From an uncultured Sulfuricurvum sp. (GTDB lineage: Bacteria > Campylobacterota > Campylobacteria > Campylobacterales > Sulfurimonadaceae): DNA of 48,024 nt. Shown piece after piece: positions 337 through 44,914 of this stretch (positions are counted from its first letter, which is position 1; the number at the start of each line of letters is the position of its first letter). The position numbers and the translations under genes are program-made. The notes beneath the pieces were generated by a model. The model did no database searches. It was not told where the DNA came from and saw only the letters and a program-made list of their open reading frames with translations. The DNA is taken from assembly GCA_903844635.1 (NCBI GenBank), contig CAIMUF010000016.1:1-48024 (forward strand). Reading direction: 5' to 3'.

Positions 337-342
337 TTGCAA

Positions 343-1234: not shown

Positions 1235-1309
1235 TTATGGCCTCAGGGATACAAAGATATGCTTTTTATAAAATTTTATAAAAAATACTCTAAAAAACAA
1301 ATATTGATC

Positions 1310-1329: not shown

Positions 1330-1345
1330 GTAATTGATGTAGAAC

Positions 1346-1729: not shown

Positions 1730-1874
1730 GGCTTACTCCTTTAAAATTTAAAATACAGATTACACTTGCAACCTTAATAAGTATTATCGAGCAATATATA
1801 TTAAAATATTATTAATTGATAATACTACTATATTGACAATATCATAGAAAACTCATATCATCATCTTGAATTTC

Positions 1875-3728
1875 TCATGATTTTGGAATATCTATCTGAT
1901 ACAAATAGATTGTCCAAAAGGTATTTTTATCTTCAAATTTATTTAAAAAAATCAAATTTTTCATCTGTGACTGCTCGATTTTATGTGCTGATAAAAGATA
2001 ACGTCCGCCTAGCTCATAAAAAGCGTTCATGTCCATTTGCAATTTTTTGATAGTTACGTTGCTATGAATAAAGAGTGATGATTCATTACCGTCAAATAGA
2101 TAACATTTACTCCCCCATCCGACAAATAACTCTCGACTCTCTTTATTTTCTGATAATGATTTCTGAATTATTTTTTGAAACTGATGCTTGTAATCTAGTG
2201 GATAACTGGTTATATAGCCATCAATCGTATAAAATCCATTATAGATTGCTACTGCTGGTTCTAAAGAGAGAGATCCAACACGATACGTGGACACATCAGC
2301 CCCTATATACAATTTAATTTTTGCGAATAAATCCTCCGCATAATATGATTTATAACTCAAGGGGGACTTTGAAATACCAAATTCTCTCGCTGAAAGCCCC
2401 ATCGCTATCTGAAAAATAATCATTCCTATAAAAACTAAAGGTGAAAAACGCAATATTTTAGAAACAATAAGCATCCCATAGACAGTGATAATAGCCCACC
2501 ATAGTGGCAGAAGCATACCGATTCTGGCAAAATTAAACTCTTTTAGAATCGGAATATATTCAGCCAATGCCCCCGTACCCTGATAAAACCACAGTGCATA
2601 CCAATAAACAAAAAATATTTGAAGCAACACAAATGCATAAAATATTCTATATTCTTTTTTAATCACAAACAAAACGATGCTAATTACCACTAAAATTGGC
2701 ATTGCATATTTATTACCAGTCACCTGCTGCAAAATTCCCATATTATAAACTAATGTAAAAAATAACATAATTGTTAGTATTGAGAGATACCATGAAAGTC
2801 GTTTTTTCACCAACGTCAACATAAGACTCAAAAGCATAAACGGCAATACAATAGCTGAAGCTCTGGTATCCATATCGACTGATCCATTTAAAAAATCGCC
2901 ATGCGCTGCTTTATACGTTTCCCATAATGTATGATTTTGCAATATCGAAAATTCGGTCCGCTGAGAAACAAACAAATGTCCCACAAACATATCGTAAAAC
3001 ATACGATATTCCACAACAATAAAAGTAAATGACATCACAAAAAGTGCCCAAAAAAGATGGATATTAAATTTTCGATTTTGATAACTATCCAATAAGAGCA
3101 GTCCCATCATTACCAAAAGAAAAAAGAAATAAACTAAAATTAAACTACTATAAAATGGTATGAGTATAATAATCAACCAATCTACCCATTTTGAGTGACC
3201 ATTTTTTATATTTAAAAATCCATACAATGCCAGTGGAACTAATGGGACGCTTAGTCCTGCTCCTGTATAAAAAGGCAAAATTGCGAACATTAGTGAAACT
3301 AAATAAATCATCAATACCCGATATCGATGATCCTTAGGAACAAAATAACGGCTCAGTAAAATAATCATACTAAATAATGCAAATCCATGCATCAATGTTT
3401 CATTAATAGTAAAGGCAACAAGGGGAGGAAAATAGTAAAAAAGCCAAACATAACCGTTTAACTCAGTTCCATACACTAATCGAGGGAGCCCACCCATGAT
3501 GTTTGGTATAATCGTATCCGATGGTGCGAATATCATACCACTGGAAGTCAATACTTTTAAAATAGGAAATACAATATCCAAATTATCATATACTTGAAGC
3601 CTACAATCTTCACCAAAATAATAAAGCGGGAATAAATACAACAACAAAATCGTGACTGAAAAAAGTATAAGCACTCTTGTATTGTTAAAAATTTGCTGAT
3701 ATAAAAAGCGATTAAAGTTTTTAATCAA
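1875..3728 (-). CDS. Polytopic membrane protein, DUF6044-like, last gene of the glycan cluster
   Basis: The protein has about 617 residues and 11-13 hydrophobic segments, with a soluble C-terminal tail from about residue 480. After the first helix comes an acidic loop (GEDCRLQVYDNLDIV) and the stretch NIMGGLPRLVYG, which recall the DUF6044/YfhO-like membrane proteins and, more broadly, GT-C glycosyltransferases with catalytic acids in the first periplasmic loop. This is from memory and not certain. The longer reading starts at a TTG at 3749, but AAGGAG at 3739-3745 places the start at TTG 3728, overlapping the gtrB stop by 8 bases. Coupling to gtrB suggests it uses the polyprenyl-phosphate sugar made there to decorate a surface glycan. 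Confidence 0.6.
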   Translation of the reverse strand: MIKNFNRFLYQQIFNNTRVLILFSVTILLLYLFPLYYFGEDCRLQVYDNLDIVFPILKVLTSSGMIFAPSDTIIPNIMGGLPRLVYGTELNGYVWLFYYFPPLVAFTINETLMHGFALFSMIILLSRYFVPKDHRYRVLMIYLVSLMFAILPFYTGAGLSVPLVPLALYGFLNIKNGHSKWVDWLIIILIPFYSSLILVYFFFLLVMMGLLLLDSYQNRKFNIHLFWALFVMSFTFIVVEYRMFYDMFVGHLFVSQRTEFSILQNHTLWETYKAAHGDFLNGSVDMDTRASAIVLPFMLLSLMLTLVKKRLSWYLSILTIMLFFTLVYNMGILQQVTGNKYAMPILVVISIVLFVIKKEYRIFYAFVLLQIFFVYWYALWFYQGTGALAEYIPILKEFNFARIGMLLPLWWAIITVYGMLIVSKILRFSPLVFIGMIIFQIAMGLSAREFGISKSPLSYKSYYAEDLFAKIKLYIGADVSTYRVGSLSLEPAVAIYNGFYTIDGYITSYPLDYKHQFQKIIQKSLSENKESRELFVGWGSKCYLFDGNESSLFIHSNVTIKKLQMDMNAFYELGGRYLLSAHKIEQSQMKNLIFLNKFEDKNTFWTIYLYQIDIPKS

Positions 3729-4656
3729 AATTAATTCTCTCCTTTTCAAAAACTAGTGGACGATTAAGAACCTGTGTATAAATCATGCCGATATATTCCC
3801 CTATAATCCCTATGAAAAAAAGTAACACTGAGAAAGAAAAGGATGCCCCAATGAGTAACGGTGCTACCCCAAGTGACATAGTATCCCAATAAATTAGCTT
3901 TGCAATCAAATAGCCAAACCCCGTTACAATACTCAACAATGCAATAATCACACTCGAAAATATTGCGAGACGTAACGGAATTTTAGAATAGTTCATTATC
4001 CCCAATATACCCATATCATAAAGAGTATAAAAATTATTTTTCGTTATACCGTGCAATCGTACCGGTTGATCATACTCAATCGTATCCACTGTATATCCTA
4101 CCTCGCTAATCATCCCTCGTAAAAATGGATAAGGATCGTCAATCGATTTAAGTGCATAAACAACTTTACGATCATACAATCCAAATCCGGTAAAATTTTT
4201 ATATATTTTAATTTCGGATAACTTTTGCAAGAGGGTATAGTATAACTCGCGCACTTTATACATCACAAGATTTTCTTGTGAGCTTTTACGTATTGCCAAA
4301 ACCATATCTGCCCCTGCTTCCCATTTTCGGATCAATTCGGGGATTAGTTCTGGTGGATCTTGTAAATCTGAAACCATTACTATAACCGCATCGCCACTGG
4401 CTTGAAAAAGTCCGTAAGCAGGCGATTTAATATGCCCAAAGTTTCTAGAATTTACAATGATTTTTATCCGTATATCTTCTAATGCCAGCTCTTTTAATAT
4501 TTTTACCGTATCGTCTGTTGATGCATTATCAATCAATATATGCTCATACTGATAATAATCAAATTGTTCCTCCATCACCTTACGAATACGTGAAATCAAT
4601 TCACGAACATTCCCCTCTTCATTGAAACACGGTGTCATAATACTAATCAGTTTCAT
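3721..4656 (-). CDS. gtrB: GtrB-type polyprenyl-phosphate glycosyltransferase (GT2, DPM1-like)
   Basis: This is a family 2 glycosyltransferase with nucleotide-binding start TPCFNEEGN, DNASTDDT, and the metal/substrate motif DLQDPPE, followed by the GtrB/ArnC-type C-terminal pair of membrane helices (about residues 230-295). Such enzymes move a sugar from a nucleotide donor to undecaprenyl phosphate on the cytoplasmic face; the lipid-linked sugar is then flipped and used outside. ATG 4656 is preferred because AAGG lies 6 nt upstream; ATG 4662 abuts the ribosome site. It overlaps the preceding membrane protein gene and is followed by another one. With gtrA upstream, the set has the composition of phage-type serotype-conversion (gtrABC) cassettes. 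Confidence 0.85.
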   Translation of the reverse strand: MKLISIMTPCFNEEGNVRELISRIRKVMEEQFDYYQYEHILIDNASTDDTVKILKELALEDIRIKIIVNSRNFGHIKSPAYGLFQASGDAVIVMVSDLQDPPELIPELIRKWEAGADMVLAIRKSSQENLVMYKVRELYYTLLQKLSEIKIYKNFTGFGLYDRKVVYALKSIDDPYPFLRGMISEVGYTVDTIEYDQPVRLHGITKNNFYTLYDMGILGIMNYSKIPLRLAIFSSVIIALLSIVTGFGYLIAKLIYWDTMSLGVAPLLIGASFSFSVLLFFIGIIGEYIGMIYTQVLNRPLVFEKERINFD

Positions 4657-7018
4657 TTTCATCCTTCTTTTTATAGACTGAGATTAAAGCTCCTTGCTCA
4701 ACTAAATCATACTGCTTTTCCACATCCCTAAAAATACTGTATAAAAGCTCTAAACGCCCTGCTCGCCAAATGGCTTCTCCATGATGATACATATAATCTA
4801 TTGACATGGGCAAATTTTTACTCATAACCTCTTGACCTCTATCACGATCCAATGCTGTATCTACAAAAAGATACTTGGGCCCTCGAGTCCAAAGAAGCTC
4901 CTTACACTCTTCCAATTCTTTTGGTGTCATGAGATACCATTTTAAATCAAAAAATGGCATATTACTGTATCTATGCGCTAAGAAAGGCAAAAAATTATCA
5001 TACTCAGAAATAATATATATACCCTCATCTACTCTACTGTACTTTTGAATTAAACTTATACTATTTTTAAAATATCTAGGGTCCATTGTTGAGACGATTT
5101 GAGCACGATCCAAATCCCAATCATAGATTTTATGCCGTTTAAAAATCATTTCATAGTTACTTTGACCCTTTATTACAAAAACAACACTATCAACATAAAC
5201 AATGCCAATGATAGAAAAAATCACAACGGTAAAACGTTTTTTAAAATTATCTGAAAATACTCTTCGATAATGCAAAAGCAATAATGCCACGGTAAGAACA
5301 TATATAAAAGCACGTGATCTCAATCCATCACTATTAAAATGCCAAATTATATATACAATTAATTCTTGTGAATAAATAAATAAAAAGATAATAAAAAGAT
5401 AATTGAAGGATAGACGATCTTTCACAATTTTCCATAATAACATATACCCAATTGCTATAATAAATAAAATTATGAACATTTGCCAAAAATTAATCGAAAA
5501 TCCAATAACCCCATCCAGATAGTATTGCGTCAACGAGCTAATACTTGACGTAACAATAAAAGTAATTACAGTGATTACCAGAGCAAATAATGTTGTTATG
5601 GTGATTGTCTTCGTACGATCTTTTTCTCGATAAGCCAAAAATAATCCCGATAAAGCTGTCGCCATGAAAATCATTATTCCTATTTGCGGATTAATGACTG
5701 TAGCAATAATGCTTAATGTCAAAGCAAGCAAGTAATAGCTTAACTTCTTTGTTTCTCCATATAAAAACAAACTATAAACTACTACAATATCTAAACAATG
5801 TCGCCATGGGCTTTCCCCTGGAGAGAGTAGTAAAAAATCATATCCACGATTATTCACCAATGCAATCGATAGTAAAAAAATTGCCGCTGTCCATACCCAG
5901 CTTCTCGTAATCATAAAAACAATAAAAATATATAATCCAAAATAAATATAATAAAATACATAACTAACTTTCAACCAACCATCCAATGAAACATCTCCGA
6001 TCTGAGAAAAAAACTTTGAAAACAACCATGCACTTCCTAGCCCATATTGTGCATTAATTTTTCCAATTTCATGGGAATGCAGAAATTGATCTATCGGAAT
6101 AAACATAAAACTGTTATGATGAATCATATAGCGACTTAATATCTGCCAATGAGCCTCAAAAGCATTGCTTTGATACCATTCTTTGGTTAAATTTGTATCA
6201 AAAGCTACCTGCATATATTGGTTTTTTTTGGGACTATTGAATCTATCGAAATATTCACTATTATTAATTTGTTTTCCATCAGCCAAAATCGTAGTTTCGG
6301 GAACATTCATATATTCATTTATAATTTTCGGATGGTTAATAATCGGGTCATAAAAAATAGTGATTAATTGAATATACCCTATAACAATGATACTAATATA
6401 AAAAAACTTTTTTTTGAAGAGACAATTTTGAAACTTTACACAATACAATATATAAATATCAATTTTATTCCATAAATAGGTGTTCACTTCTTGGCATTTA
6501 TGCCACAATCGAATCCCAAGCAACAATATTTTTTTCCAACGATTCACAACTTCTTGTTTGTATCTAACCATATAGTCAAACCACGGCAATAACACAAGTA
6601 TAAAAAAATTAGTTAACTGTAAACTTGCTTTATCCAAGAAAGATATATTCAATCCATAAATGATTAGGGGAGACAAATAAGAAAAAAAGAATGAAATTAA
6701 AAATAATTTTTTATCTGAAGCTTTTATCATAGCCGATATCGTTATCGAAGCATAACGTTTCATTTTGGAATCGATTTTATGATCTATAATAACAACGCTG
6801 ATAAAAAATAATCCTAAAGAAATAATAGAAATGAGATAGGTTAAAAGTTCAATTCGTTTGCTTGGATTAAAATAAATTGCAACACTTTTAAAAATAGTAT
6901 ATTCTGGCAAAGGTATTACTAATGATTTAGTAATATAGTAGGCCAAAAAAATAATTTCTACAGAAAGGATAAAAGTGTACCATTCCGCAGAGTTTTTACG
7001 GCTTGACTTCAATATCAA
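4643..7018 (-). CDS. Large polytopic membrane protein, candidate GtrC-like glycosyltransferase (791 aa)
   Basis: No family is recognised with confidence. The protein has four N-terminal helices, a long extracytoplasmic-type segment (about residues 235-335) rich in Tyr/Asn, then about ten further helices and a roughly 150-residue C-terminal soluble domain. This architecture, and the position between gtrA and gtrB, fits a GT-C sugar transferase that takes lipid-linked sugar on the periplasmic side (inference). The start is TTG 7018: AGGGAG is 5 nt upstream and the codon forms a TTGA overlap with the gtrA stop. The gene is markedly AT-rich, with Ile/Phe/Tyr-heavy composition compared with rfbH or rfbG, which may mark separate acquisition. 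Confidence 0.6.
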   Translation of the reverse strand: MILKSSRKNSAEWYTFILSVEIIFLAYYITKSLVIPLPEYTIFKSVAIYFNPSKRIELLTYLISIISLGLFFISVVIIDHKIDSKMKRYASITISAMIKASDKKLFLISFFFSYLSPLIIYGLNISFLDKASLQLTNFFILVLLPWFDYMVRYKQEVVNRWKKILLLGIRLWHKCQEVNTYLWNKIDIYILYCVKFQNCLFKKKFFYISIIVIGYIQLITIFYDPIINHPKIINEYMNVPETTILADGKQINNSEYFDRFNSPKKNQYMQVAFDTNLTKEWYQSNAFEAHWQILSRYMIHHNSFMFIPIDQFLHSHEIGKINAQYGLGSAWLFSKFFSQIGDVSLDGWLKVSYVFYYIYFGLYIFIVFMITRSWVWTAAIFLLSIALVNNRGYDFLLLSPGESPWRHCLDIVVVYSLFLYGETKKLSYYLLALTLSIIATVINPQIGIMIFMATALSGLFLAYREKDRTKTITITTLFALVITVITFIVTSSISSLTQYYLDGVIGFSINFWQMFIILFIIAIGYMLLWKIVKDRLSFNYLFIIFLFIYSQELIVYIIWHFNSDGLRSRAFIYVLTVALLLLHYRRVFSDNFKKRFTVVIFSIIGIVYVDSVVFVIKGQSNYEMIFKRHKIYDWDLDRAQIVSTMDPRYFKNSISLIQKYSRVDEGIYIISEYDNFLPFLAHRYSNMPFFDLKWYLMTPKELEECKELLWTRGPKYLFVDTALDRDRGQEVMSKNLPMSIDYMYHHGEAIWRAGRLELLYSIFRDVEKQYDLVEQGALISVYKKKDENETD

Positions 7019-7380
7019 TTACGCTCCCTAAAAACATATTTTTTATTAAGACCAAACGACACCAATGCCATTGGCAATATTAAAATCGCTCCTGCAACAT
7101 ATATATCAACTGAGATTTGTTTCAAAAAATAGAGTCCAATAATATTCAGTAGATAAATAATCCCATACACAGCAAAAAATTTCCAAATCAATCTATTGTC
7201 ATGCGAATCAAAAACCAGCTTTCCTGTTGTTTTAAAATTAAATAGAACACCGATGATCGTTCCTATCAAAACAGCTATAGTATAATGCAATCCAATAGAG
7301 ATCAACACAGCAAATACCGCATATCCAAACAGTGTATTGAGCCCACCTACCGCTAAAAATTTAATAAGTCGTTTATCCAT
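7015..7380 (-). CDS. gtrA: GtrA-family membrane protein, probable flippase for polyprenyl-linked sugar
   Basis: The protein has 121 residues and four predicted membrane helices, with the GtrA hallmarks FLAVGGLNTLFGYAVF near the start and FNFKTTGKLVF after helix 2, ending in a basic tail (NKKYVFRERN). GtrA proteins are thought to flip undecaprenyl-phosphate-linked sugars made by GtrB. It overlaps the rfbH stop by 8 bases, has no clear ribosome site of its own, and overlaps the next gene by 4, so it is translationally coupled on both sides. Length and topology are normal for the family. Confidence 0.88.
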   Translation of the reverse strand: MDKRLIKFLAVGGLNTLFGYAVFAVLISIGLHYTIAVLIGTIIGVLFNFKTTGKLVFDSHDNRLIWKFFAVYGIIYLLNIIGLYFLKQISVDIYVAGAILILPMALVSFGLNKKYVFRERN

Positions 7381-8713
7381 GAAACGAAATAAACTCTTTT
7401 ATTTTTTGAATCATATAGGCTATTGCCTCATCACCCATCCCTGGATACAATCCGATCCAGAAACTGTCATTCATGATCTTATCGGTATTGGGGAGATCAC
7501 CAATGACACGATAATCGCTGTCTCGTACCATGCTGTCAAACATCGGATGACGAAGCATATTTCCGGCGAAAAGATTACGGGTTTGTATATTAGCATTTTC
7601 GAGATGTTCTACGAGTTCATTACGGCTAAATTGTACGCCGTCTTTTAGGGTGATCATAAAGCCAAACCAGCTTGGATCACTGTTTGGTGTAGCAGCATTC
7701 AGGATGAGAGCATCTACACCTGTTAGTCCATTGTAAAGTTTTGTGAAGTTCTCTTTACGCTTTTCGACAAAAGTGGGGAATTTTTCAAGCTGTGCTACAC
7801 CGATTGCCGCTTGCATATCGGAGACTTTGAGATTGAATCCGAAGTGACTGTAGACGTATTTGTGATCATACCCCTTTGGCAAAGTTCCAAAACTTTGAGA
7901 GAATCGGCATCCGCACGTGTTATCCATACCGCTTTCACACCAGCAGTCGCGTCCCCAGTCGCGCATAGAGAGCATGATCTTTTTTAGGAGAGGATTGTCC
8001 GTATAGGTCGCTCCCCCTTCTCCCATGGTCATATGGTGAGGAGGGTAAAAACTGGATGTTCCGATATCTCCCCATGTCCCTGTCGGTTTCCCCTCGTAGG
8101 TAGATCCTAACGCATCGCAGTTGTCCTCGATAAGCCAGAGGTTATGTTTGTCGCAAAACTCTTTGACCGCACGGAGGTTAAAAGGGTTACCCAGCGTATG
8201 GGCGATCATGACCGCCTTGGTTTTTGGGCTAAGGGCCTTTTCGAGTTGTGTTACATCGATGTTAAAATGGGTCAGTTCCATATCAACAAAAACCGGAACG
8301 GCGCCGTATTGCACGATCGGAGCAACTGTGGTCGGGAAACCTGCCGCAACGGTGATTACTTCATCTCCACGCTTGACTTGACGATCACCGTGCAATGGGG
8401 ACGTAAGAGTATAAAATGCGAGCAAGTTAGCCGAGCTGCCGCTATTGACCAAAAATGTCCATCGTACTCCAAGATAGTCGGCGAGTTTCTTTTCAAATGT
8501 TTTAGAATAGCTTCCGTAGGTGAGCCAAAAATCCAGAGAGCTGTCGACGAGGTTAATCATCTCTTTTTCATCAAATACGCGTCCTGCATAGTTGACACGG
8601 CTTTTACCCGCTACAAATTCTTTCTCTTGTGTCGGCTTATGAACCAATTCATAATATTCTTTGGTCTTGGCCAAAATTTCGTTTTTTAGTATTTCTTGTT
8701 TCGTCATGCTCAT
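7373..8713 (-). CDS. rfbH: CDP-4-dehydro-6-deoxyglucose 3-dehydratase (E1), PMP and 2Fe-2S dependent
   Basis: The protein belongs to the DegT/DnrJ/EryC1 aminotransferase fold but carries the E1 hallmarks. The PLP-lysine position is replaced by His (SSFYPPHHMTMGEGG), so the enzyme uses free PMP, and a Cys cluster DCWC...NTCGC (about residues 245-262) can bind the [2Fe-2S] centre. It removes the C3 hydroxyl of CDP-4-keto-6-deoxyglucose on the route to 3,6-dideoxyhexoses, together with an electron-donating reductase (E3/RfbI/AscD) that is not in this window. The length, about 446 aa, is normal. Possible starts are GTG 8722, ATG 8713 (ATGA overlap with the upstream stop; chosen) and ATG 8707 (best spaced from GGAAAG). 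The large antisense frame at 8144-8689 is a shadow. Confidence 0.92.
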   Translation of the reverse strand: MSMTKQEILKNEILAKTKEYYELVHKPTQEKEFVAGKSRVNYAGRVFDEKEMINLVDSSLDFWLTYGSYSKTFEKKLADYLGVRWTFLVNSGSSANLLAFYTLTSPLHGDRQVKRGDEVITVAAGFPTTVAPIVQYGAVPVFVDMELTHFNIDVTQLEKALSPKTKAVMIAHTLGNPFNLRAVKEFCDKHNLWLIEDNCDALGSTYEGKPTGTWGDIGTSSFYPPHHMTMGEGGATYTDNPLLKKIMLSMRDWGRDCWCESGMDNTCGCRFSQSFGTLPKGYDHKYVYSHFGFNLKVSDMQAAIGVAQLEKFPTFVEKRKENFTKLYNGLTGVDALILNAATPNSDPSWFGFMITLKDGVQFSRNELVEHLENANIQTRNLFAGNMLRHPMFDSMVRDSDYRVIGDLPNTDKIMNDSFWIGLYPGMGDEAIAYMIQKIKEFISFHG

Positions 8714-9627
8714 TCTTTCCACATAGTATCAATTACTTTTAAATACCGATCTTCTTTTATTACTTCTGCGTCTAATTTATCCAAATTGTGCTTGAAATAG
8801 TCTCTCATCTTTATAATTGCATTTTTATGGGAAGTAAACTCAAAATTACCCATTTCACTCAAGATTCTTTCATTATTGGATGTATACTCATTATTTAGAC
8901 CCTCATGTAATAGTCGGATTTCAGATTTAAAATCACTTACTTCATTGATAATATTTGACAGTGCAATCAAATCGATTCTTTGACCCGTTGAGAGATTGTA
9001 AATTTTATCTTTTGCTTCATTTTGTATGAAAAAATCAATCATTTTTAGTAAGTCATCAATATAAATATAATCAAAAAAGACATTTTTATTAATCGTTATG
9101 GGTAAATGTAAAAGATTTTTAACAATGGCATTAGAAATAAATTTATATCGATAGTTTTCATACTCCCCATACGCGCCGAAAATTCTAAGCTGAACTATTC
9201 GATCTGTTTTTTCAATATAATGAGATGTTATCGCTTTATAAAAACCATATTCATCCAAGGGTAAAGTCGCAAGATAATCATCTTCTTTGGCATCAACAAT
9301 TGGCTTATGTTTTCCATATTCGGCACCGCTACCAAAACTGATAATCTTTTGAACATTCTTTTCATGCTTAGCAATGTTAAAAAACAGTCGTAAGTTGTAT
9401 TCCGTACTATTTTTCATATCAACTGTATCGCGACCACCACCACGATTTGCTGTATGGATGATAATATCGATTTTATTGCCTAAAATATAATTATCAACTT
9501 CTTTTTCATTGTATAAATCCAGCTCTGATCTTGAAGGACAAAACAAAGTATAACTATATTCATGTTGAAAATATTCTTTCAGATGAGAGCTAATAAAACC
9601 ATTAGCTCCAGTAATAAAAATATTCAT
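8710..9627 (-). CDS. NAD(P)-dependent sugar epimerase/reductase (extended SDR)
   Basis: The protein has 305 residues with an N-terminal Rossmann motif (ITGANGFISSHL), the Ser of the triad in SFGSGAEYG and the YxxxK pair in YGFYK, all as in extended short-chain dehydrogenases acting on nucleotide sugars. Lying between FkbM and rfbH, it could be the 4-ketoreductase (abequose/paratose-type) or, next to a YerE-like enzyme, the YerF-type reductase acting on the added two-carbon branch. Sequence alone does not decide. It is AT-rich compared with rfbH. It starts 9 bases after the FkbM gene stop and overlaps rfbH through ATGA. Confidence 0.78.
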   Translation of the reverse strand: MNIFITGANGFISSHLKEYFQHEYSYTLFCPSRSELDLYNEKEVDNYILGNKIDIIIHTANRGGGRDTVDMKNSTEYNLRLFFNIAKHEKNVQKIISFGSGAEYGKHKPIVDAKEDDYLATLPLDEYGFYKAITSHYIEKTDRIVQLRIFGAYGEYENYRYKFISNAIVKNLLHLPITINKNVFFDYIYIDDLLKMIDFFIQNEAKDKIYNLSTGQRIDLIALSNIINEVSDFKSEIRLLHEGLNNEYTSNNERILSEMGNFEFTSHKNAIIKMRDYFKHNLDKLDAEVIKEDRYLKVIDTMWKE

Positions 9628-9636
9628 AACATACAG

Positions 9637-10728
9637 CTAAAAAATATATAATACAAATTCAAATCCATAATGCCCATGATATCTAATATAAAAGTTATCA
9701 TATTGCATACAAGACAATATCAAGTCCAAATCTTCTGTGCACCCTAATGAATAGTCTTTGATATTCTTTCGAGAGAGAGAGAGAGGAATATTAATAAAAT
9801 CTAATGGTAAATGATAAATTGAAATGGCCAAAATAGGTTTATTCTTTAATATTAACTTTTTCATACCTTCTAATGCTTGATTTTCAAAACCTTCAATATC
9901 CATTTTTACAAAATCTACTTTTGCCATAATAGTACTATCAACCTTTGAAACCATTATTTTATGCTCTGAATTTTCATCAATATTACAACCCGTTCCAGAT
10001 CCTGAATTAAATCCAATCAATCCATCAAAGTCTCCTGCACCCATTGGAAATACGCATGCATCCAAATTATTGGCATAAATTTTATTCTGTAACTTTATAA
10101 GATTAGCACTGTCTGGTTCAAAAGCATAATAGTTGTCAATTTTTATATTCTTACCATTGAAAACATCTATTAAATCACCATGACAAGCACCTAAATCCAA
10201 TACATTCATAGTCTCCTTGTTCTTTACTTCTTCTAATATTACATCGGGCAGATACATATTTCTATCATAAAAATCATTGATCAACTCGTATCTAAATGTC
10301 TTTCTAAAATTCATTATTGCATTAAATATATTCTTAGATAATTCATCTGACAAGAGGTTTCTCACCTTATCTATATCAATATTTTTTAAATCTTTTTGTA
10401 TAGAATTAGGATGTCTTAAAAATAAATGTTCAAAGTCATATAAATCAAATTTTTCTATTGATTCAAATATTGTATAAACTTTTTCAAATCCAAGTTTAAT
10501 TAAATATTCTTTTACTTCATAAATATTTACATATTCATTTAAAATTGTTATAATAACTGAAATGTTTTTTATTCTAATAGATTTTGGATCTACAATTTCC
10601 ACTTCGTTATAAGACTGTCCAGACTTCCCTTTATCTAAAATTGAAATTACCTTAAAATTTTTATTTTCAATATAATGATAAAATTTTTTTCCTAATCCAC
10701 CAAAACCATATAACATTATTTCATTCAT
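9637..10728 (-). CDS. FkbM-family methyltransferase with N-terminal Rossmann-like domain
   Basis: There appear to be two parts. Residues 1-90 begin MLYGFGGLGKKFYHYIE, a glycine-rich nucleotide-binding turn as in PglD-like or CoA/NAD-binding domains, without catalytic residues that I recognise. Residues about 165-340 are an FkbM-type SAM methyltransferase: VLDLGACHGD (motif I), an acidic FEPD, and DFVKMDIEGFE. FkbM enzymes usually O-methylate sugars. AAGGATAGG precedes the ATG. It is very AT-rich and Lys/Asn/Ile-heavy compared with rfbF/rfbG, suggesting a later addition to the cluster. It is probably a glycan O-methyltransferase; acceptor unknown. Confidence 0.75.
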   Translation of the reverse strand: MNEIMLYGFGGLGKKFYHYIENKNFKVISILDKGKSGQSYNEVEIVDPKSIRIKNISVIITILNEYVNIYEVKEYLIKLGFEKVYTIFESIEKFDLYDFEHLFLRHPNSIQKDLKNIDIDKVRNLLSDELSKNIFNAIMNFRKTFRYELINDFYDRNMYLPDVILEEVKNKETMNVLDLGACHGDLIDVFNGKNIKIDNYYAFEPDSANLIKLQNKIYANNLDACVFPMGAGDFDGLIGFNSGSGTGCNIDENSEHKIMVSKVDSTIMAKVDFVKMDIEGFENQALEGMKKLILKNKPILAISIYHLPLDFINIPLSLSRKNIKDYSLGCTEDLDLILSCMQYDNFYIRYHGHYGFEFVLYIF

Positions 10729-10796
10729 TTTCCTATCCTTTTTTCTATATCTAAAATTCTTTATTTATCTTCTTCTTTTCTTTTTGAGTAAAATCT

Positions 10797-11582
10797 TCAT
10801 CTTAACTCCAATAATTTATTTACAGCCTCAGTAAGTGATCTAACTTCATAATCATGATGGAAATGTAGCTCCCGCTCGTCATTCAATAATGTAGCATTAT
10901 TATTTATAATTTGTGAATAAGCTATACCGCATTTTCTTGCCATTGCAACATCGCTTTCATATGTATCGCCAATAATATATAATTCATCAGTATTTAAATT
11001 CCAATCATTCATCAATTGCGCTATCATGTTGATTTCTGGTTTACCAATAATGATGTCAGGCTGTCGCTTAGAAGCACCGACAATAGCTCCAACCATGGCT
11101 CCACAACCCGGTTTTAAGATATTATTTTCTATCAAATAATTTGAATCAGTATTGCATGCAACAAATAAAGCACCATTTTCTAAAGCTGTTAGTGCATCAT
11201 ATATTTTATCATACGTAATATCAAAGTCCATTCCGATTAAAATACATTCACACTCTGATGGACTACTTAATTCTAAACCAACGGAGATAATTTCATTTTC
11301 TAAATTTTTACTACCTATAACATAAATCTTTTTTAAACTGCGATCTAATAAAAACTGTACTGATGCCGATGCAGAACAATATACCTTATCCGAAGAAGCA
11401 GGTATACCCAATGAAATCAATTTTTGAGCCATCTCTTCACGTGATTTTGTCGAATTATTTGTAATATAAAAAATATCAATTTGATTTTTGCGTAATATTT
11501 CCAAAACATCCTGTGCATCATGCGCTAACTTATTGCCATAATAAAGCGTTCCGTCAAGATCAAATATAACACCTTTAATCAT
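10797..11582 (-). CDS. HAD-IIA family sugar-phosphate phosphatase (NagD-like)
   Basis: The nucleophile motif FDLDGTLYYG lies at the N-terminus, motif II at ITNNST, and motifs III/IV at IIGKPE and YIIGDTYESDVAMA, the pattern of NagD/HAD-IIA phosphatases. An open frame extends to a TTG at 11597, but GAAGGAGGATAAA just before ATG 11582 is a near-perfect ribosome site, so the protein is 261 aa starting MIKGVIFDLDG. It follows the thiamine-diphosphate enzyme with a 1-base gap, so the two are co-translated. A role in removing phosphate from a sugar-phosphate intermediate is likely but not proven. Confidence 0.82.
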   Translation of the reverse strand: MIKGVIFDLDGTLYYGNKLAHDAQDVLEILRKNQIDIFYITNNSTKSREEMAQKLISLGIPASSDKVYCSASASVQFLLDRSLKKIYVIGSKNLENEIISVGLELSSPSECECILIGMDFDITYDKIYDALTALENGALFVACNTDSNYLIENNILKPGCGAMVGAIVGASKRQPDIIIGKPEINMIAQLMNDWNLNTDELYIIGDTYESDVAMARKCGIAYSQIINNNATLLNDERELHFHHDYEVRSLTEAVNKLLELR

Positions 11583-11583
11583 T

Positions 11584-13389
11584 TTATCCTCCTTCAATCG
11601 GTTTGATAATCATATTACTTAAAAACTCATTCCTGTCTAAAAAGGGATAAAGATCTTCAAGAGGCTTTGAGATTATCGAGCCATCATCTTTTTTATACGA
11701 CGAGATTTTAGGATATAGAACTTCGCTAGGGTCAAGTACTACTTCACAAAATACTGGACCTTCTATGGAAAGAATCGTATTTAAATTCATTTCCATTTCT
11801 TTATGATTACTAAGTATATAGGTTTCAAATCCATAAACTTTAGTCAATGCAATCATATCTGGAATTGTTACTCCGCTTTTCGGACCTTCCCCGATAAAAT
11901 GCCCATCAAAAAAATTGTTTTGAGTGGTGCGTATAGAGAGGTATCCATTATTATTAAACATAAAAATTTTAATTGGTAGTTTATAATGGATTATCGTTTG
12001 CAATTCTTGTAAGTTCATTTGAATACTGCCATCACCAGTTAAACAAATTATATCCTTACAATTATTTGCCAAACATGCGCCTATTGCTGCAGGTAAATCA
12101 TAACCCATTGATGCACATGCTACATTAGAGAATAAACGCTGACCATCTTTTACAGGAAATGCTTGAAATGCAGACGTATAAGCCGTGCCGTTACCCGTAA
12201 TGGTAATACTATTTGAAGAAAGTAATGTTCCTAATTTTTCAGCAAAGACATGTGAATTTACATATTTATTGTATTCATAGTATTCCTTTGGAACAATCGG
12301 ATAATACTCTTTGATTCGCTGACAATAGTCTAACCAATCATCGTATACAGTATTGAATGAAACTTTTTTAAACTCTTTAATCATTACATTTATAAAAAAA
12401 TTTATATCTGACACTATTTTAAGATTAATATTTAACGTATGTTTATTTAACTCTGCAGGATCGATATCAACCATAATTTTTATAGCTTCCCTACCAAAAT
12501 ATTCCCAACTATAGCTAATAATACGCAAATTCATACGTGTACCTAAAATAATTATTAAGTCACTATTTTGCATAATAAAGTTCGCAGCACGTTCACCTAG
12601 TATTCCTGGACGACCAAAAAAGAACTTGTGGTCTGACGCAATTAAATCTACGCCTGAAATAGCTGTCAAAACAGGAACTCGTGTCATATCGACTAATTGG
12701 ATAAAGGATGGCAGTGCATCAGCGAGCCTTATACCATTTCCAGCAATAATCACAGGTCTTTGTGCATTTTTAAGTAACTCAATAACTTCATCAATTTTGG
12801 TGTCATAGTTTTGTGCTTCAGGAGGGGTAAATTCTATTAAAGTCGCTTCATCTACCATCGATCCTTGAATATCCAGTGGGATATCGAGCCACACTGGCCC
12901 AGGGCGACCATTTTTGGCTTCATACACTGCTCTTTGAAGATGATAGCGAATACTATTTTTATCGGTAATCATTACAGCATATTTTGTAATAGGCTTTACC
13001 ATTGCGATAATATTACACTCTTGATCACCAAGTTGTCGTAAATTTAATTCTGGTTGAGATGCAATCGTTGTTTCAAATTTTACTTGTCCTGAAATAGTAA
13101 GAGTCGGAATCGAGTCAACCCACGCACTGTATACACCTGTAATAGCATTTGTCCCCCCAGGTCCTGTGGTCACATAAGCAATACCGATTTTATTGGTTAC
13201 CCTAGCAAATCCTTCTGCTGCAAATGTACATGCTTGCTCATGATGATTGCACACATACTTTAATTTTTCATGTCGTCCCAACGAATCAATAAGGTGCATA
13301 TTTCCACCACCTGATACCATAAATACTGTTTTTGCAGTATCATTATGCTCCGCTAAAAAATTGGCGACATAATCACTTACTTTTATCAT
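11584..13389 (-). CDS. Thiamine-diphosphate enzyme, acetolactate-synthase/YerE-like
   Basis: The 601-residue protein has the three-domain ThDP fold: an N-terminal PYR domain with the catalytic Glu in HHEQAC, a central domain (IIAGNGIRL, DIDPAEL), and a C-terminal PP domain with the ThDP signature GDGSIQMN...NNNGY. Family members join a two-carbon unit from pyruvate to an acceptor. Between rfbG and rfbH the closest functional model is YerE of Yersinia, a ThDP/FAD enzyme that adds a two-carbon branch to CDP-3,6-dideoxy-4-ketoglucose. No regulatory ilvN-type gene or other ilv gene is nearby, so a branched-chain amino-acid role is unlikely. ATG 13389 overlaps the rfbG stop (ATGA). Confidence 0.78.
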   Translation of the reverse strand: MIKVSDYVANFLAEHNDTAKTVFMVSGGGNMHLIDSLGRHEKLKYVCNHHEQACTFAAEGFARVTNKIGIAYVTTGPGGTNAITGVYSAWVDSIPTLTISGQVKFETTIASQPELNLRQLGDQECNIIAMVKPITKYAVMITDKNSIRYHLQRAVYEAKNGRPGPVWLDIPLDIQGSMVDEATLIEFTPPEAQNYDTKIDEVIELLKNAQRPVIIAGNGIRLADALPSFIQLVDMTRVPVLTAISGVDLIASDHKFFFGRPGILGERAANFIMQNSDLIIILGTRMNLRIISYSWEYFGREAIKIMVDIDPAELNKHTLNINLKIVSDINFFINVMIKEFKKVSFNTVYDDWLDYCQRIKEYYPIVPKEYYEYNKYVNSHVFAEKLGTLLSSNSITITGNGTAYTSAFQAFPVKDGQRLFSNVACASMGYDLPAAIGACLANNCKDIICLTGDGSIQMNLQELQTIIHYKLPIKIFMFNNNGYLSIRTTQNNFFDGHFIGEGPKSGVTIPDMIALTKVYGFETYILSNHKEMEMNLNTILSIEGPVFCEVVLDPSEVLYPKISSYKKDDGSIISKPLEDLYPFLDRNEFLSNMIIKPIEGG

Positions 13390-14483
13390 ACTTTACTCCA
13401 ACACATATTTTTCTTTTTAGCATCTGCAACATAGTGATTCAAATCATCAATTGTACCAACTGTATTGTTCTCATAAAAATTCTTATACCACACTACCGTT
13501 TTCTCAAAAGTCGTTTTGCTATCCCAAACATCTTTCCATTTTAAACGAATATGGGCTTTTGAACAATCGAGTTTTAATAAATTCGCTTCATGAAATTGAT
13601 AAAGATCTCGATTGATCTCATAATCGATTTTATCCCAGTGTTTTTTTACATGATGTAAGGCCTCTTCAACGGTAATACTCCCCTCATCACTGGGACCAAA
13701 GTTCCATGCTTCTCCAAATTCGACTTTTTCTTCCAAAAGTTTTTGTCCGATAGCAAGATATCCACTGAGAGGTTCAAGAACATGCTGCCATGGGCGAGTA
13801 GCATTGGGATTTCGGATACTGACCTTTTTTCCTTTTGAAACGGATAACATAATATCGGTCATCAGGCGGTCTTTCGCCCAGTCTCCGCCACCAATCACGT
13901 TACCCGCGCGACACGATGCTAAAAGAGTATTATGCGATTTTTTGTAATCGACAGGATTGAAATATGAGTTTCGGTAAGAATTAGCGAGCAAATCGGCACA
14001 CCCTTTAGACGAGCTGTAAGGATCATATCCTCCCATAGGATCGTTTTCACGATATCCCCATACCCATTCACGGTTTTCATACGCTTTGTCGCTGGTGATG
14101 TTGACGATTGCTTTCACACCGTTTGCGCGGCATGCTTCAAAGACTTTAAGTGTTCCCATCACATTGGTCTCATACGTTTCGATAGGTTTTTCATAGGAGA
14201 GGTACACAAGCGGTTGAGCGGCAAGATGAAATACTATATCGGGCTTGTAGGTTGCAAAAGTAGTATTTAATGCGTCCAAATCTCGAATATCTCCGATGAT
14301 AGAGATAATATCAAGATTTAGAAGCAAAATATGGTTAGGCTCTGTGGAGGCAGGAAGTGAATATCCGATTACTTTGGCTCCCATCTGATGTAACCATAAT
14401 GCCAGCCATGATCCTTTGAATCCTGTATGCCCTGTTAATAAAACCGTTTTATTTTTGTAAACGCCACCAAAAAGATTATCCAT
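13386..14483 (-). CDS. rfbG: CDP-glucose 4,6-dehydratase
   Basis: This is an extended SDR beginning VLLTGHTGFKGSWLALWL, typical of RfbG, with VFHLAAQPLV, the Ser/Asp/Lys stretch ITSDKAYEN and the active Tyr-Lys pair YSSSKGCAD. It converts CDP-glucose to CDP-4-keto-6-deoxyglucose. A frame runs to ATG 14498, but ATG 14483 gives the usual short N-terminus (MDNLFGG) and overlaps the rfbF stop as TAATG; about 365 aa, as expected. It is less AT-rich than the FkbM and HAD genes. It is the second gene of the CDP-sugar operon. Confidence 0.94.
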   Translation of the reverse strand: MDNLFGGVYKNKTVLLTGHTGFKGSWLALWLHQMGAKVIGYSLPASTEPNHILLLNLDIISIIGDIRDLDALNTTFATYKPDIVFHLAAQPLVYLSYEKPIETYETNVMGTLKVFEACRANGVKAIVNITSDKAYENREWVWGYRENDPMGGYDPYSSSKGCADLLANSYRNSYFNPVDYKKSHNTLLASCRAGNVIGGGDWAKDRLMTDIMLSVSKGKKVSIRNPNATRPWQHVLEPLSGYLAIGQKLLEEKVEFGEAWNFGPSDEGSITVEEALHHVKKHWDKIDYEINRDLYQFHEANLLKLDCSKAHIRLKWKDVWDSKTTFEKTVVWYKNFYENNTVGTIDDLNHYVADAKKKNMCWSKV

Positions 14484-15256
14484 TACCAGTTTTTCCATTT
14501 GGCTTTATTATCATGCCACAGTTGGTTCAGCTTTTGGTTATCTCGAAGCGTATCCATACACTGCCAAAAACCATGATGTTTATAAGCAAAAAGCTCACCC
14601 TCTTTTGCAATCGCTTGCAAGGCAGTTTGCTCAAAAACACATGCTTCATTTTCAGTTAAATACTTAAATATTGTTGATTCACATACAAAAAATCCGCCAT
14701 TAATCCAGCCACCCTCATCAAGCGGCTTTTCAACAAAACTTTTAATATTCATATCTTCAGAAATATCCAAATTTCCAAATCGTGCTTCGGGTTGGACAGC
14801 GGTCATCGTTAATGTCTTGCCATTTTTTTTGTGAAAGGCTACCGTATCTGTAATATTAACATCACAAACCCCGTCGCCGTAGGTAAGCAAAAAAGGCTCA
14901 TTTCCAATATACTTTTCAGCTCTTTTGATCCGTCCACCTGTCATTGTATCACGTCCCGTATCGACTAAAGTAACCTTCCATGGCTCACTGGTATTATTAT
15001 GAACTTCCATTTGACCCGTCTGAATATCAAAAGTAATATCACTTTGATGCAAAAAATAATTAGCAAAATATTCTTTGATGTAATAGCTTTTATATCCCAG
15101 CAAAATAACAAAATCATTAAAACCGTGAGCAGAATACATTTTCATAATATGCCAAAGAATCGGTTTTCCTCCAATTTCTACCATCGGCTTTGGTTTTAAC
15201 TCTGTCTCTTCAGATATACGGGTTCCATACCCACCTGCTAAAATCACTACTTTCAT
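14483..15256 (-). CDS. rfbF: Glucose-1-phosphate cytidylyltransferase
   Basis: The nucleotidyltransferase start KVVILAGGYGTRISEET is followed by KPKPMVEIGGKPILWHIM, LLTYGDGVCDVN and FVEKP, all characteristic of RfbF, which makes CDP-glucose from CTP and glucose-1-phosphate. The start is set at ATG 15256, giving the family-typical MKVVILAGG; ATG 15265 is three codons upstream. It is the first gene of the eleven-gene cluster and is divergent from pckA. Two TATAAT-like -10 boxes lie in the 170-base gap upstream. Confidence 0.94.
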   Translation of the reverse strand: MKVVILAGGYGTRISEETELKPKPMVEIGGKPILWHIMKMYSAHGFNDFVILLGYKSYYIKEYFANYFLHQSDITFDIQTGQMEVHNNTSEPWKVTLVDTGRDTMTGGRIKRAEKYIGNEPFLLTYGDGVCDVNITDTVAFHKKNGKTLTMTAVQPEARFGNLDISEDMNIKSFVEKPLDEGGWINGGFFVCESTIFKYLTENEACVFEQTALQAIAKEGELFAYKHHGFWQCMDTLRDNQKLNQLWHDNKAKWKNW

Positions 15257-15306
15257 TCTGTCCATTCTTGCATTATTTATAATAACTCAACACTTTTCTG
15301 GTTTTT

Positions 15307-15312
15307 ATTATA
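15307..15312 (-). promoter_or_regulatory. Candidate -10 box of the CDP-sugar operon
   Basis: The minus strand reads TATAAT here, about 50 bases before the rfbF start. No good -35 is visible 17 bases upstream (TGATGA), which is common in campylobacterotan vegetative promoters. A second AT-rich candidate lies nearer the gene at about 15275-15285. Confidence 0.45.
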
Positions 15313-15373
15313 TCAATATTTTGTGTTAATCATCATACTTTCACTCTTTAATTCCGATTAAACATTGTAGGCG

Positions 15374-40258: not shown

Positions 40259-43200
40259 TTAGACTTCTCTATTCAACACAAATTGCTCAAACTCAGCTGC
40301 GGGAAGCGGTTTACTGAAATAATATCCTTGTATCTCCTTACAACCGCTTTCACGTAGAATCTCGAGCTGATCAACAGTCTCTACCCCTTCAGCTATGGTT
40401 ATCATACTAAGGCTATGCGCCATACTAATAATCGTATTAACGATGGATCTATCTTCAGAATTTTCAGTGATGTCACAAATGAAGGACTGATCGATTTTGA
40501 GTTTATACACTCGAAATTTTTTCAGGTAGTTGAGTGATGAATACCCCGTTCCAAAATCATCAATAGACATACGTATTCCATGGCCATATAATTCATTCAT
40601 AATTTCAATAGCATGAAGCGGATTTTCCATAGCAATCCCTTCTGTGAGTTCAAGTTCAAGATACTCTGCAGGGAGCTGTAATTCACTAAGAATACTCAAA
40701 ATTAGAGACACCAATTGCGGGTGTCGGAATTGGATTGCTGAGAGATTTACTGCCATGATAAAAGGATTTAATCCTCCCTCCATCCACATCTTCAATTGTC
40801 CAAGTGCACACCGAAGAACCCACTCTCCAATCCCAATGATTTGTCCGCTCTCTTCAGCTATAGGGATGAATTCTGCAGGAGATACCATTCCCATTGTTGG
40901 ATGATGCCAGTGTAAAAGAGCTTCTGCCCCGATGATGAGACCTGTGTCTACTGAGATCTGCGGCTGATAGTAAACTTCGAGTTCATTACGACTAAGAGCA
41001 TACCTAAGTGCATTTTCAATTTCAAGATTTCGTACAGAATGGGCTTGCATTTCAGGAGTAACAAAACGATAGCAATTGCGACCATCATGTTTTGCTCGAT
41101 ACATTGCAGCGTCGGCCGATTGTAACAGCGCTTCAAAATCATTTCCGTCAATTGGATAAAGAGCAATCCCGATCGAAGGTGTAATGGTAAGTTCATGATA
41201 CTGGAGAGAGTAAGGCTTTGAGATAGCATCAATCAGTTTTTCAGCAACGTGAGCAGCTCCATCTGCATCGGTACCGGGAAGAACGATAACGAATTCATCT
41301 CCCCCCTGCCGAGAAAGTGTATCCTCTTCACGAACTACGGAGTGCATACGTTTCGCTACATGAACAAGTAAATCGTCTCCAATAGTATGCCCCAAAGAGT
41401 CATTGATATTTTTAAAATGGTCTAAATCCAGGAATAATAATGCTATCGATTCTTTTGAACGATGGGCAATACTTATTGCATATTTGACACGATCGTTAAG
41501 CAAAATACGGTTTGGCAATTCGGTAAGAGCATCAAAATGGGCAAGCCACTGTACTTTTTCTTCGGCTATTTTTTGAGTAGTAATATCTTGAACAGAGCCA
41601 TGGATATGGACTACCTTATTCTCTTCCATAACAGGCGAAGCAATAAGCCGAACCCATTTTTGGGTCCCTTTTTTGGTTCTCATGTGGAGTTCAAGATCAA
41701 TAGAAATACCTAATTTCAGCATCTCATCCAGTGCAGCTTCTACTTTTTTGAGCCATTCCCCTTCAAAAACACTGAATCCTATTGCCATCGTTACTGTCTC
41801 AGTTAAATCCATCTCATAGATGAGTGCCGCTTCTTTCGTCCAAACTCCCGTTTTAGTACGCATATCAATATCCCATCCACCGATATGCGCAGCAGAACTC
41901 ATTTCTTCGAGAAGTTTTTCAGTTTGTATTAAAGATGCTTCCGATGCTTTTCGTTTCGTTTCGCGATCAAAATTATCCATAGCAAAGCTGATATCCATTG
42001 CCATCTCTATCAGTAAATTCTGGCTTAACGAATCAAACGCATTGATCTTATGTGCATAGACAGTGAAAGCCCCAATCACTTCACCGTATTGATGAATCGG
42101 CAAGGAAGCGGATGCTTTCCATCCCATCATGCTGCCTCGTTCGTGCCAAGCTTCCGTAGCTGGATCGCTCATAAAATCCTGACACCAATAGGGACGGTTT
42201 TCTCGGATGGCCGTACCCGTAGGGCCTTGTCCAGTGATGCTATCAGCAAGAGTAGAAATTTTTATCCCATTGAGGTACTGATTAGTATCTCCATTCGAGG
42301 CAACTGGATACACAAGATGGCTCCATGGATCGACAAGACCAATCCAGGACATAGCAATAATATTTTCTGAAACTACCCCTTTGCACACTTCCACAAAGAG
42401 TTCTTCAGGAGTTGCAGAGTGAACAATAGCTTTATTGCAATTACTAAGAGCTGCATAAAGATGAGAAAGCTGCTGAATATGGCTTTCACTCTCATGACGC
42501 TGTGTAATATCCCGTGCTATTCCCAATACACCGATTAAGCGGCCATTATCATCGAACATAGGTGTTTTAATCGTTTCAAGCAAAGCACTATGGCCATCAT
42601 CGGCAAAAGTAACCCACTCTTCATTTATACTTAGACCATTGGTTTCCATTGCTAAACGGTCTTTTTCACGAAAAAGATCTGCCATTTCCTTGTCAACAAA
42701 ATCATAATCGCTCTTACCGACAATTTTTTCTTCTTTGGCACCAAAAAAACGTTCAAACATCGGGTTACAAAGCAGATAAACACCCTCGTTATTTTTAAGC
42801 CATATTAAATCGGGGATAGTATCAAGCAGTGTATGTAGCTGATTTTGCGTCTCTAAAATTTCAATACTGCGCTTGTGCACAAGTCTTTCAAGAGAAAATC
42901 GATAGCTTCTTAATTCTACATACTGTTTTATACTGTATCCCACAAGAATACTGAATAAAAAAGCGATTATTCCTTCAATCGCTAAAAGCCCCTGATTTGT
43001 CCATCCATCAGCAGGGGCAATCCGGAGTATCCATTCTGCATTAGGAATATCGAGCCTTTCTTCTACAGGATGCACCAATTCTCTACTGCCTGAATAAGCA
43101 ATAATCTCTTCATTTTTACTTACAGGATGAATGCGGGAAAGAGTATATTGATACCCATCTTGCTTAAGTAAACCAAGAGCTGTTGTGTTAATAATATCAG

Positions 43201-43639
43201 GAAATCGAATTACAATCAGTACAAATCCCCAAAACTTTTCTTTTATAAAAACTGGAAATCGCCCGACAAGTCCATCTCCACCCTGAACAAGATGTAACGG
43301 TCCGGCAAGAGTTAATTTTTTATTTTCAAGAGCCCACAAAGCTTCAGCTTTCTGTGCAGGACTAGTCAAAAGATTAAAACCAATGGCTTTTTCATTACCC
43401 GAAAGGGGAACAACTTGCTTGATAACACCATTAGGAGCAAGAGCTATTTCGGAAATATTGGGATAAAAAGTAATAAGTTTTTTTCCGATTGATTCAAAAT
43501 TATTGATAGTTCCGCTTTGTTCAATTATTCCGGCCAATGGATAAGCTAATGCTAATTTTTGATTAATACTTTTATGTATATTATTGGCATTTTCTTTAGC
43601 AATGTTTTCGATTTTAACTTGTAAATTATTTATTCGCAT
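40259..43639 (-). CDS. CHASE-PAS-GAF-PAS-GGDEF-EAL cyclic-di-GMP signalling protein, main frame
   Basis: The 1126-residue frame holds, in order: a CHASE-type periplasmic sensor (about 15-200), a membrane helix (about 217-237), PAS (255-385), GAF (395-560), PAS (575-700), GGDEF (705-860) and EAL (870-1120). The GGDEF motif is intact and preceded at the right distance by REED, an RxxD inhibitory site. The EAL domain has EALLHW and DDFGTGYSS, so both cyclase and phosphodiesterase may work. As it stands the frame lacks the first membrane helix a CHASE protein needs; that helix is in frame upstream but without a start codon, and is reached from ATG 43764 only by a -1 shift (see next entry). GAAGAG abuts ATG 43639, a poor site. 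Confidence 0.85.
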   Translation of the reverse strand: MRINNLQVKIENIAKENANNIHKSINQKLALAYPLAGIIEQSGTINNFESIGKKLITFYPNISEIALAPNGVIKQVVPLSGNEKAIGFNLLTSPAQKAEALWALENKKLTLAGPLHLVQGGDGLVGRFPVFIKEKFWGFVLIVIRFPDIINTTALGLLKQDGYQYTLSRIHPVSKNEEIIAYSGSRELVHPVEERLDIPNAEWILRIAPADGWTNQGLLAIEGIIAFLFSILVGYSIKQYVELRSYRFSLERLVHKRSIEILETQNQLHTLLDTIPDLIWLKNNEGVYLLCNPMFERFFGAKEEKIVGKSDYDFVDKEMADLFREKDRLAMETNGLSINEEWVTFADDGHSALLETIKTPMFDDNGRLIGVLGIARDITQRHESESHIQQLSHLYAALSNCNKAIVHSATPEELFVEVCKGVVSENIIAMSWIGLVDPWSHLVYPVASNGDTNQYLNGIKISTLADSITGQGPTGTAIRENRPYWCQDFMSDPATEAWHERGSMMGWKASASLPIHQYGEVIGAFTVYAHKINAFDSLSQNLLIEMAMDISFAMDNFDRETKRKASEASLIQTEKLLEEMSSAAHIGGWDIDMRTKTGVWTKEAALIYEMDLTETVTMAIGFSVFEGEWLKKVEAALDEMLKLGISIDLELHMRTKKGTQKWVRLIASPVMEENKVVHIHGSVQDITTQKIAEEKVQWLAHFDALTELPNRILLNDRVKYAISIAHRSKESIALLFLDLDHFKNINDSLGHTIGDDLLVHVAKRMHSVVREEDTLSRQGGDEFVIVLPGTDADGAAHVAEKLIDAISKPYSLQYHELTITPSIGIALYPIDGNDFEALLQSADAAMYRAKHDGRNCYRFVTPEMQAHSVRNLEIENALRYALSRNELEVYYQPQISVDTGLIIGAEALLHWHHPTMGMVSPAEFIPIAEESGQIIGIGEWVLRCALGQLKMWMEGGLNPFIMAVNLSAIQFRHPQLVSLILSILSELQLPAEYLELELTEGIAMENPLHAIEIMNELYGHGIRMSIDDFGTGYSSLNYLKKFRVYKLKIDQSFICDITENSEDRSIVNTIISMAHSLSMITIAEGVETVDQLEILRESGCKEIQGYYFSKPLPAAEFEQFVLNREV

Positions 43640-43656
43640 CTCTTCAAAATGCCAGA

Positions 43657-43764
43657 CTATCGTTCCTGATAGTACAACAGCAATAAAAAAGCCAATATTC
43701 CGGCCATCAATCCTTGTGTTGATGTATCATGACGTTCATTGAAAAAGGATGTAAAATTAGGCAT
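43657..43764 (-). other. N-terminal ORF of the GGDEF-EAL gene, separated by a -1 frameshift at T TTT TTA
   Basis: ATG 43764 opens a 35-codon frame whose product ends ...QGLMAGILAFLLLLYYQER and stops at 43657. At 43690-43684 the minus strand reads T-TTT-TTA in phase, a classic -1 slippery heptamer. After one slip the next codons read IAVVLSGTIVWHFEE straight into MRINN of the main frame, giving a 1168-residue protein with a continuous membrane helix. A 6-bp stem (ACTATC/GATAGT) starts 10 bases after the heptamer. One extra T in the T6 run would also restore the frame, so a mutation, phase variation or assembly error is equally possible. Confidence 0.65.
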
Positions 43765-43964
43765 AACAACTCATTTCTTTCTCACAATCAAATTATTTTA
43801 ATTCTACCATATATTGCATTATGCATACAAACCATTTTTATTTTGAATATCAAATATACATAAAATTTCATTAGCCTATTGTCAGTTATTTAGCTAATAC
43901 TCGTTTTTCTATTGAAACCTTTTTCAAAAAGAAATTTTACTTTTTTATCATGCCTCACATCTCA

Positions 43965-43993
43965 TTTAAAGTATTTAAAGTATATACTTTAAA
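43965..43993. promoter_or_regulatory. Operator-like repeats before parA
   Basis: TTTAAAGTA occurs twice in direct tandem (43965-43973 and 43974-43982), and 43974-43993 is a perfect 20-bp palindrome. The array ends 25 bases before the parA start. It is a likely self-regulation or centromere-like site for the ParA/partner pair. The rest of the gap (43765-43964) is AT-rich with no gene seen. Confidence 0.58.
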
Positions 43994-44018
43994 TATTCTA
44001 TAGATATTTAAGGCATAT

Positions 44019-44660
44019 ATGATAATCACTCTCTCACATCAAAAAGGCGGCGTTGGAAAATCAACCGTTGCCTGGAATCTTGCTGTTAATTTTTCAAAAA
44101 TAATCGATACGCGTATTATCGATCTCGATACCCAACGATCACTGACCGTTACCAATGCACTTCGCCAACAGCATAAAATGAATCCTATCCAAATGCTTCA
44201 TTTTAATACCGCTGAGGAACTGGCTCATTATGCGCAAAATGATTTGGATAATACTCTGACTATTATCGATTCAGGCGGATTTGACAGTGCCTATAATCGT
44301 GTAGCGATTATGGCATCTGATCTTCTTATTACACCCGTAAGTGATAAGCCCTTTGATTTAATGGGTCTGCAAAAGTATGAAGAGATACTCAAAAGCCTTT
44401 CTGAAATTCAAGGTGAGACCATTAAGACGAATATTTTATTCAATAACATCAATCCTGCCATGAAGAGATTCGGTGACCTCATCGAGTTTGTTTGTGCCTC
44501 CGATTACTTTGATCTTTTGATATCTATTTTACGTCAAAGAGTAGATTTTGCAAACTCCGTCGGAGAAGGTAAAAGCATAAAAGAATATCGAATATTTAGC
44601 AAAGCGGATCAAGAAATGGATAATTTATTTGAAGAAATAAAAAGTCTTTTAAATATTTAA
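44019..44660 (+). CDS. ParA-family partition ATPase
   Basis: The 213-residue protein has the deviant Walker A KGGVGKST at the N-terminus, Walker A' DLDTQRSLT (residues about 38-46) and Walker B LTIIDSGG. It lacks the N-terminal DNA-binding region of longer ParA proteins, so it is of the small ParA/ParF/MipZ type used by plasmids, integrated elements and chromosomal orphans. With the small downstream gene and the repeats upstream it forms a ParF/ParG-like set. The start is ATG 44019 after AAGG. Confidence 0.85.
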   Translation: MIITLSHQKGGVGKSTVAWNLAVNFSKIIDTRIIDLDTQRSLTVTNALRQQHKMNPIQMLHFNTAEELAHYAQNDLDNTLTIIDSGGFDSAYNRVAIMASDLLITPVSDKPFDLMGLQKYEEILKSLSEIQGETIKTNILFNNINPAMKRFGDLIEFVCASDYFDLLISILRQRVDFANSVGEGKSIKEYRIFSKADQEMDNLFEEIKSLLNI

Positions 44661-44692: not shown

Positions 44693-44914
44693 ATGGCTAA
44701 AAAAAGTTTTTTACAAAATATTGAAAAAGTAAAAGATTCAGCTGCTATGAGTGAACGTCAGGATGTTGTTAAAAGCGATAAAGCTAAAATGAAAAAGCTT
44801 ATTACGATGCCCGTTGAATGGGAAGCTAAAATACGTGATTTTCATGGGGGAACAGTAAGCGCTTATATTCTTATCGCGTTGCAAGAGCGAATGCAAAAAG
44901 ACGGGTTGCTTTAA
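44693..44914 (+). CDS. Small ParA partner, probable ribbon-helix-helix protein (73 aa)
   Basis: Basic, disordered N-terminal 30 residues (MAKKSFLQNIEKVKDSAAMS...) are followed by KKLITMPVEWEAKIRDF, a likely beta strand and first helix, and SAYILIALQERMQ, a second helix: the pattern of ParG-type ribbon-helix-helix proteins. It starts 32 bases after parA with AAAGG; the gap holds two ACATATA-type repeats. It would bind the AT-rich repeats and stimulate the ATPase (inference). Confidence 0.65.
   Translation: MAKKSFLQNIEKVKDSAAMSERQDVVKSDKAKMKKLITMPVEWEAKIRDFHGGTVSAYILIALQERMQKDGLL

Follow-up and report, generated by a model that had tools for sequence, protein, structure and literature searches.

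Analysis of the window, the whole stretch of 48,024 nucleotides that forms contig C16 of a 2.67-Mb, 86-contig genome (G000), revealed that the frame break near the start of a c-di-GMP sensor gene is best explained by a one-base contraction of an ordinary gene, either real or present in the consensus only, and not by programmed recoding, a reading to which we assign a probability of about 0.9. As suggested by the sequences compared, the contraction from seven to six T residues is in the best reading private to this copy.

The sensor gene lies on the minus strand. Its 5' fragment in the ORF listing (43657..43764) is a frame of 35 codons that runs from ATG 43764 to a frame-shifted TAG at 43657 and has the product MPNFTSFFNERHDTSTQGLMAGILAFLLLLYYQER. 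Sequence comparison identified ATG 43764 as the true start, the orthologues in genomes G002 and G028 beginning at the equivalent ATG. The remainder of the gene, 1126 codons from ATG 43639 to the stop at 40259 (40259..43639, minus strand), encodes CHASE, PAS, GAF, PAS, GGDEF and EAL domains, with GGDEF and EAL motifs both intact, a second membrane helix at residues 219-237 and no other stop or frameshift. Upstream of this ATG the large frame continues free of stops through 43640..43726 (minus strand), which encodes the second half of helix 1, and the search of 43640-43726 for an alternative start of the large frame found no ATG, GTG or TTG. The two frames are offset by one base and meet at GCT TTT TTA, where the T6 run (43690-43685) is followed by A43684, so that the resulting T TTT TTA (43684..43690, minus strand) stands in the -1 slippery phase. 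All coordinates given for the two frames and the heptamer in an earlier reading of the sequence alone, referred to here as the sequence-only reading, were confirmed.

Several small features were recorded around the start of the gene. A five-codon frame (MSCYA; 43758-43776, minus strand) overlaps the start ATG of the sensor; G002 shares it, and G028 has a version that reads MSSYV. An AT-rich inverted repeat (43950-44016), detected as an opposite-strand self-match, separates the sensor gene from a divergent ParA-like gene (44019-44660), and the ParA-like gene is followed by a small protein of 73 residues (44693-44914) with no Pfam match. The ParA-like gene and the 73-residue protein look like a ParA-type partition pair, accompanied by a repeat of operator-like appearance.

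In the nearest relative, G002, the sensor is a 97% identical protein encoded in a single 1170-codon frame, and T7 followed by A stands at the position of the window's T6 (GGCTTTTTTTATTG). Two hydrophobic helices flank the CHASE region of the G002 protein (16-34 and 261-279), the first of which is missing from the window's 1126-residue frame, and the G002 stretch matching the break encodes a hydrophobic helix in one frame. No homologue was found to start at the equivalent of ATG 43639 without an upstream helix; the helix is present, and in the same frame. The gene is best read as that of a single-frame, membrane-bound c-di-GMP sensor consisting of helix 1, a periplasmic CHASE domain, helix 2 and a PAS-GAF-PAS-GGDEF-EAL series. 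The remaining orthologues read here, from the genus and from other genera, are open through the site with codons such as TTT TTC ATC, TTC CTC ATT or TTC CTG ATG. Across orthologues there is no conservation of the heptamer, of a long T run or of the combination of frame break and slippery site. The sensor shows what is expected of a recently inactivated gene, namely a disabling lesion in this copy and an orthologue that is intact in a close relative. Several Sulfuricurvum genomes are among the named relatives of the protein, which makes a Sulfuricurvum-type member of the Campylobacterota the most likely source organism; a scan of the named genome collection for relatives returned no same-species record.

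Frame breaks were also seen elsewhere in this family. The orthologue from another species of the genus (G029, L109:3900-4020) has its own break at a different site, at about residue 1040 near the C-terminus, which points to sporadic breakage of this gene and not to one preferred site. A frame jump near residue 94-100 was observed in a distant homologue from a Rhodoferax relative (L026, about 3279-3300).

A T7-to-T6 change breaking the gene, which the sequence-only reading had named as its alternative, fits the single frame and T7 of G002. Most likely, slipped-strand mispairing during DNA replication would have dropped one T from the T7 run within the codons of helix 1; a consensus error is the less likely origin of the T6. 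Translation from ATG 43764 would then halt after 35 residues and leave the product off, with at most a residual protein lacking helix 1 made through weak re-initiation at ATG 43639. A real deletion would mean that this lineage is without, or on the way to losing, one c-di-GMP sensor out of many, and the lesion-free rest of the gene implies that such a loss would be recent or partial. The one-base homopolymer break is of an ordinary kind, and Antonov et al. put unclustered frame transitions down to sequencing error or recent indels (PMC3711429).

The possibility that the cell carries T7 and an intact gene, and that the T6 is a consensus or assembly error, is a sub-case of the one-base contraction as far as recoding is concerned and the most credible of the alternatives, though we hold it only as a minority view. 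It would agree with the intact state of the rest of the gene and with the expectation of Antonov et al. that breaks confined to one genome with intact relatives will more often be sequencing errors than true indels (PMC3711429). Against it stands our survey of sampled stretches, in which 128 kb of this genome were aligned with G002. The T run of the sensor was the only one among 318 aligned coding runs of at least 6 bases to differ by an indel, compared with 6 of 37 non-coding runs, and the sensor gene was the only one of 121 ORFs tested (109.9 kb) to be broken inside its body. The other flagged ORFs, judged from gap and stop positions, were explained by an antisense ORF, C-terminal end differences or start-codon choice. 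Many similar single-base breaks, which would betray a faulty assembly, were not encountered, and frequencies of 1/318 coding runs and 1/121 ORFs show that this assembly is not prone to homopolymer errors. The window also contains a strain-variable block: its left third, positions 1-15346, has no high-identity counterpart in the compared stretch G002:C25, and positions 15346-47834 are mostly 94-97% identical to it.

The substitutions that separate the two sensor genes (dN 0.0145, dS 0.079) also bear on the question of error. When changes were polarised with outgroups, which at about 70% identity are distant, the G000 branch carried 22 nonsynonymous to 19 synonymous changes and the G002 branch 10 to 28 (Fisher p = 0.021, uncorrected like the other p values below). 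Two further polarised tests pointed the same way with modest strength: the earliest, which used other outgroups, gave 23:17 versus 11:25 (p = 0.022), and one with fewer outgroups gave 15:24 versus 6:15. Two sensor controls were symmetrical between branches (48:84 and 41:81); the sensor control G000:C25 was excluded, since the G002 sequence set against it proved not to be orthologous (68% identity). Comparison of the sensor gene with the sensor controls alone gave p = 0.068, and comparison with 59 other genes, in which both branches have a ratio of nonsynonymous to synonymous changes of about 0.26-0.29, gave p = 0.015. Hence, the excess of amino-acid change on this lineage mildly favours a real inactivation over a consensus error, as far as such sequence comparisons can suggest.

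Reversible phase variation, in which slipped-strand mispairing at T7/T6 would make the sensor alternate between on and off states within the population, appears unlikely. The difference between T7 and T6 is exactly one repeat unit of the homopolymer, and E. coli genes avoid UUUUUUU, for which slippage or indel mutation may be the reason (PMC4066793). However, a tract of seven is short and routine in this genome, where 68 A7/T7 runs were found in the aligned coding sequence and no other one was altered; T7 runs are therefore not visibly hypermutable, and the tract is no visible hotspot. The T run is absent from orthologues other than G002, no long hypervariable tract is conserved at the locus, and the sampled stretches contained no further homopolymer-tract variation of coding genes.

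Slightly more doubtful is a split gene, in which the 1126-residue frame would have a translation of its own, re-initiated at ATG 43639, and yield a sensor without helix 1. This ATG lies 17 bases past the stop of the 35-codon frame, but it has no well-spaced ribosome-binding site, as GAAGAG abuts the ATG, and in orthologues the equivalent position belongs to a single longer frame and does not invariably carry Met. The wider idea that T6 is a regulated allele of low output, with slippage of the ribosome or RNA polymerase supplying a small, fixed amount of full-length product, or that T6 and T7 toggle in the population, seems to us about equally improbable.

Transcriptional slippage at the T run might be supposed to restore the frame in a useful share of messages, since single-base transcript insertions happen in A/T runs and increase with run length; we consider this very improbable, as slippage would seldom occur in a run of only six U's, and the genome-wide study in question found no case of slippage restoring a broken frame (PMC5574713).

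The sequence-only reading had preferred programmed -1 frameshifting at U UUU UUA, which would produce a defined amount of full-length sensor, and had pointed to the fit between the two frames, which do overlap, to the in-phase heptamer and to a hairpin downstream. The heptamer is indeed in the right phase, but it is an automatic result of the deletion: GCT TTT TTT ATT minus one T reads GCT TTT TTA TTG, so that the heptamer, a by-product of T loss from an in-frame T7-A, is not independent evidence for frameshifting. Whenever a T7A-like run in the right frame drops one base, a slippery heptamer can be expected to stand in phase at the resulting break, and it is no evidence of recoding unless relatives retain it. 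Such motifs are also frequent in this AT-rich sequence: the window contains 67 copies of TTTTTTA against 39.7 expected, 8 of them in the slippery phase within the examined ORFs, and 84 in-phase X_XXY_YYZ heptamers were counted in 41 kb of coding sequence. A weak hairpin is present in the region proposed as stimulator (43630..43684, minus strand; sequence and folding), as had been noted. RNA folding of the region varied with the cut, z being -0.14 and -1.16 in 101-nt windows and -1.92 for the most favourable cut of 55 nt, which on balance puts the hairpin close to chance; the stretch reads alike in G002, whose gene requires no shift. Among motifs with U in the A-site codon, those that are efficient in E. 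coli have a pyrimidine in the last position (H_HH.U_UU.Y), and U_UUU_UUA is not one of them (PMC4066793). With orthologues that read straight through without any shift and a tract that is not conserved, programmed frameshifting is the least probable of the explanations considered. As a separate observation, a terminator-like weak hairpin leads into the T run (43705-43690, minus strand; 1 found, 0.3 expected by shuffling).

The window's copy can finally be placed beside known systems. With the orthologous CHASE-PAS-GAF-PAS-GGDEF-EAL sensors of G002 (97% protein identity) and other genomes it shares the start and the helix 1 region, and it differs from them in that their frame is continuous, with either T7 (G002) or other sequence (other species) at the run. 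Its in-phase X_XXY_YYZ heptamer resembles the sites of programmed -1 frameshifting in dnaX and the IS3/IS911 transposases; unlike those systems, the site here is not conserved, the stimulator is not convincing and the orthologues are unshifted. Homopolymer phase variation through slipped-strand mispairing likewise involves one-unit length changes near the start of a gene, whereas the tract in the window is short and not conserved, and its length variation is known here between genomes, one per species. There is also a likeness to the unclustered frameshifted genes (singletons) of the GeneTack survey (PMC3711429), in which a single-base frame break occurs in one genome and the relatives are intact, and from which nothing notable distinguishes this sensor gene.
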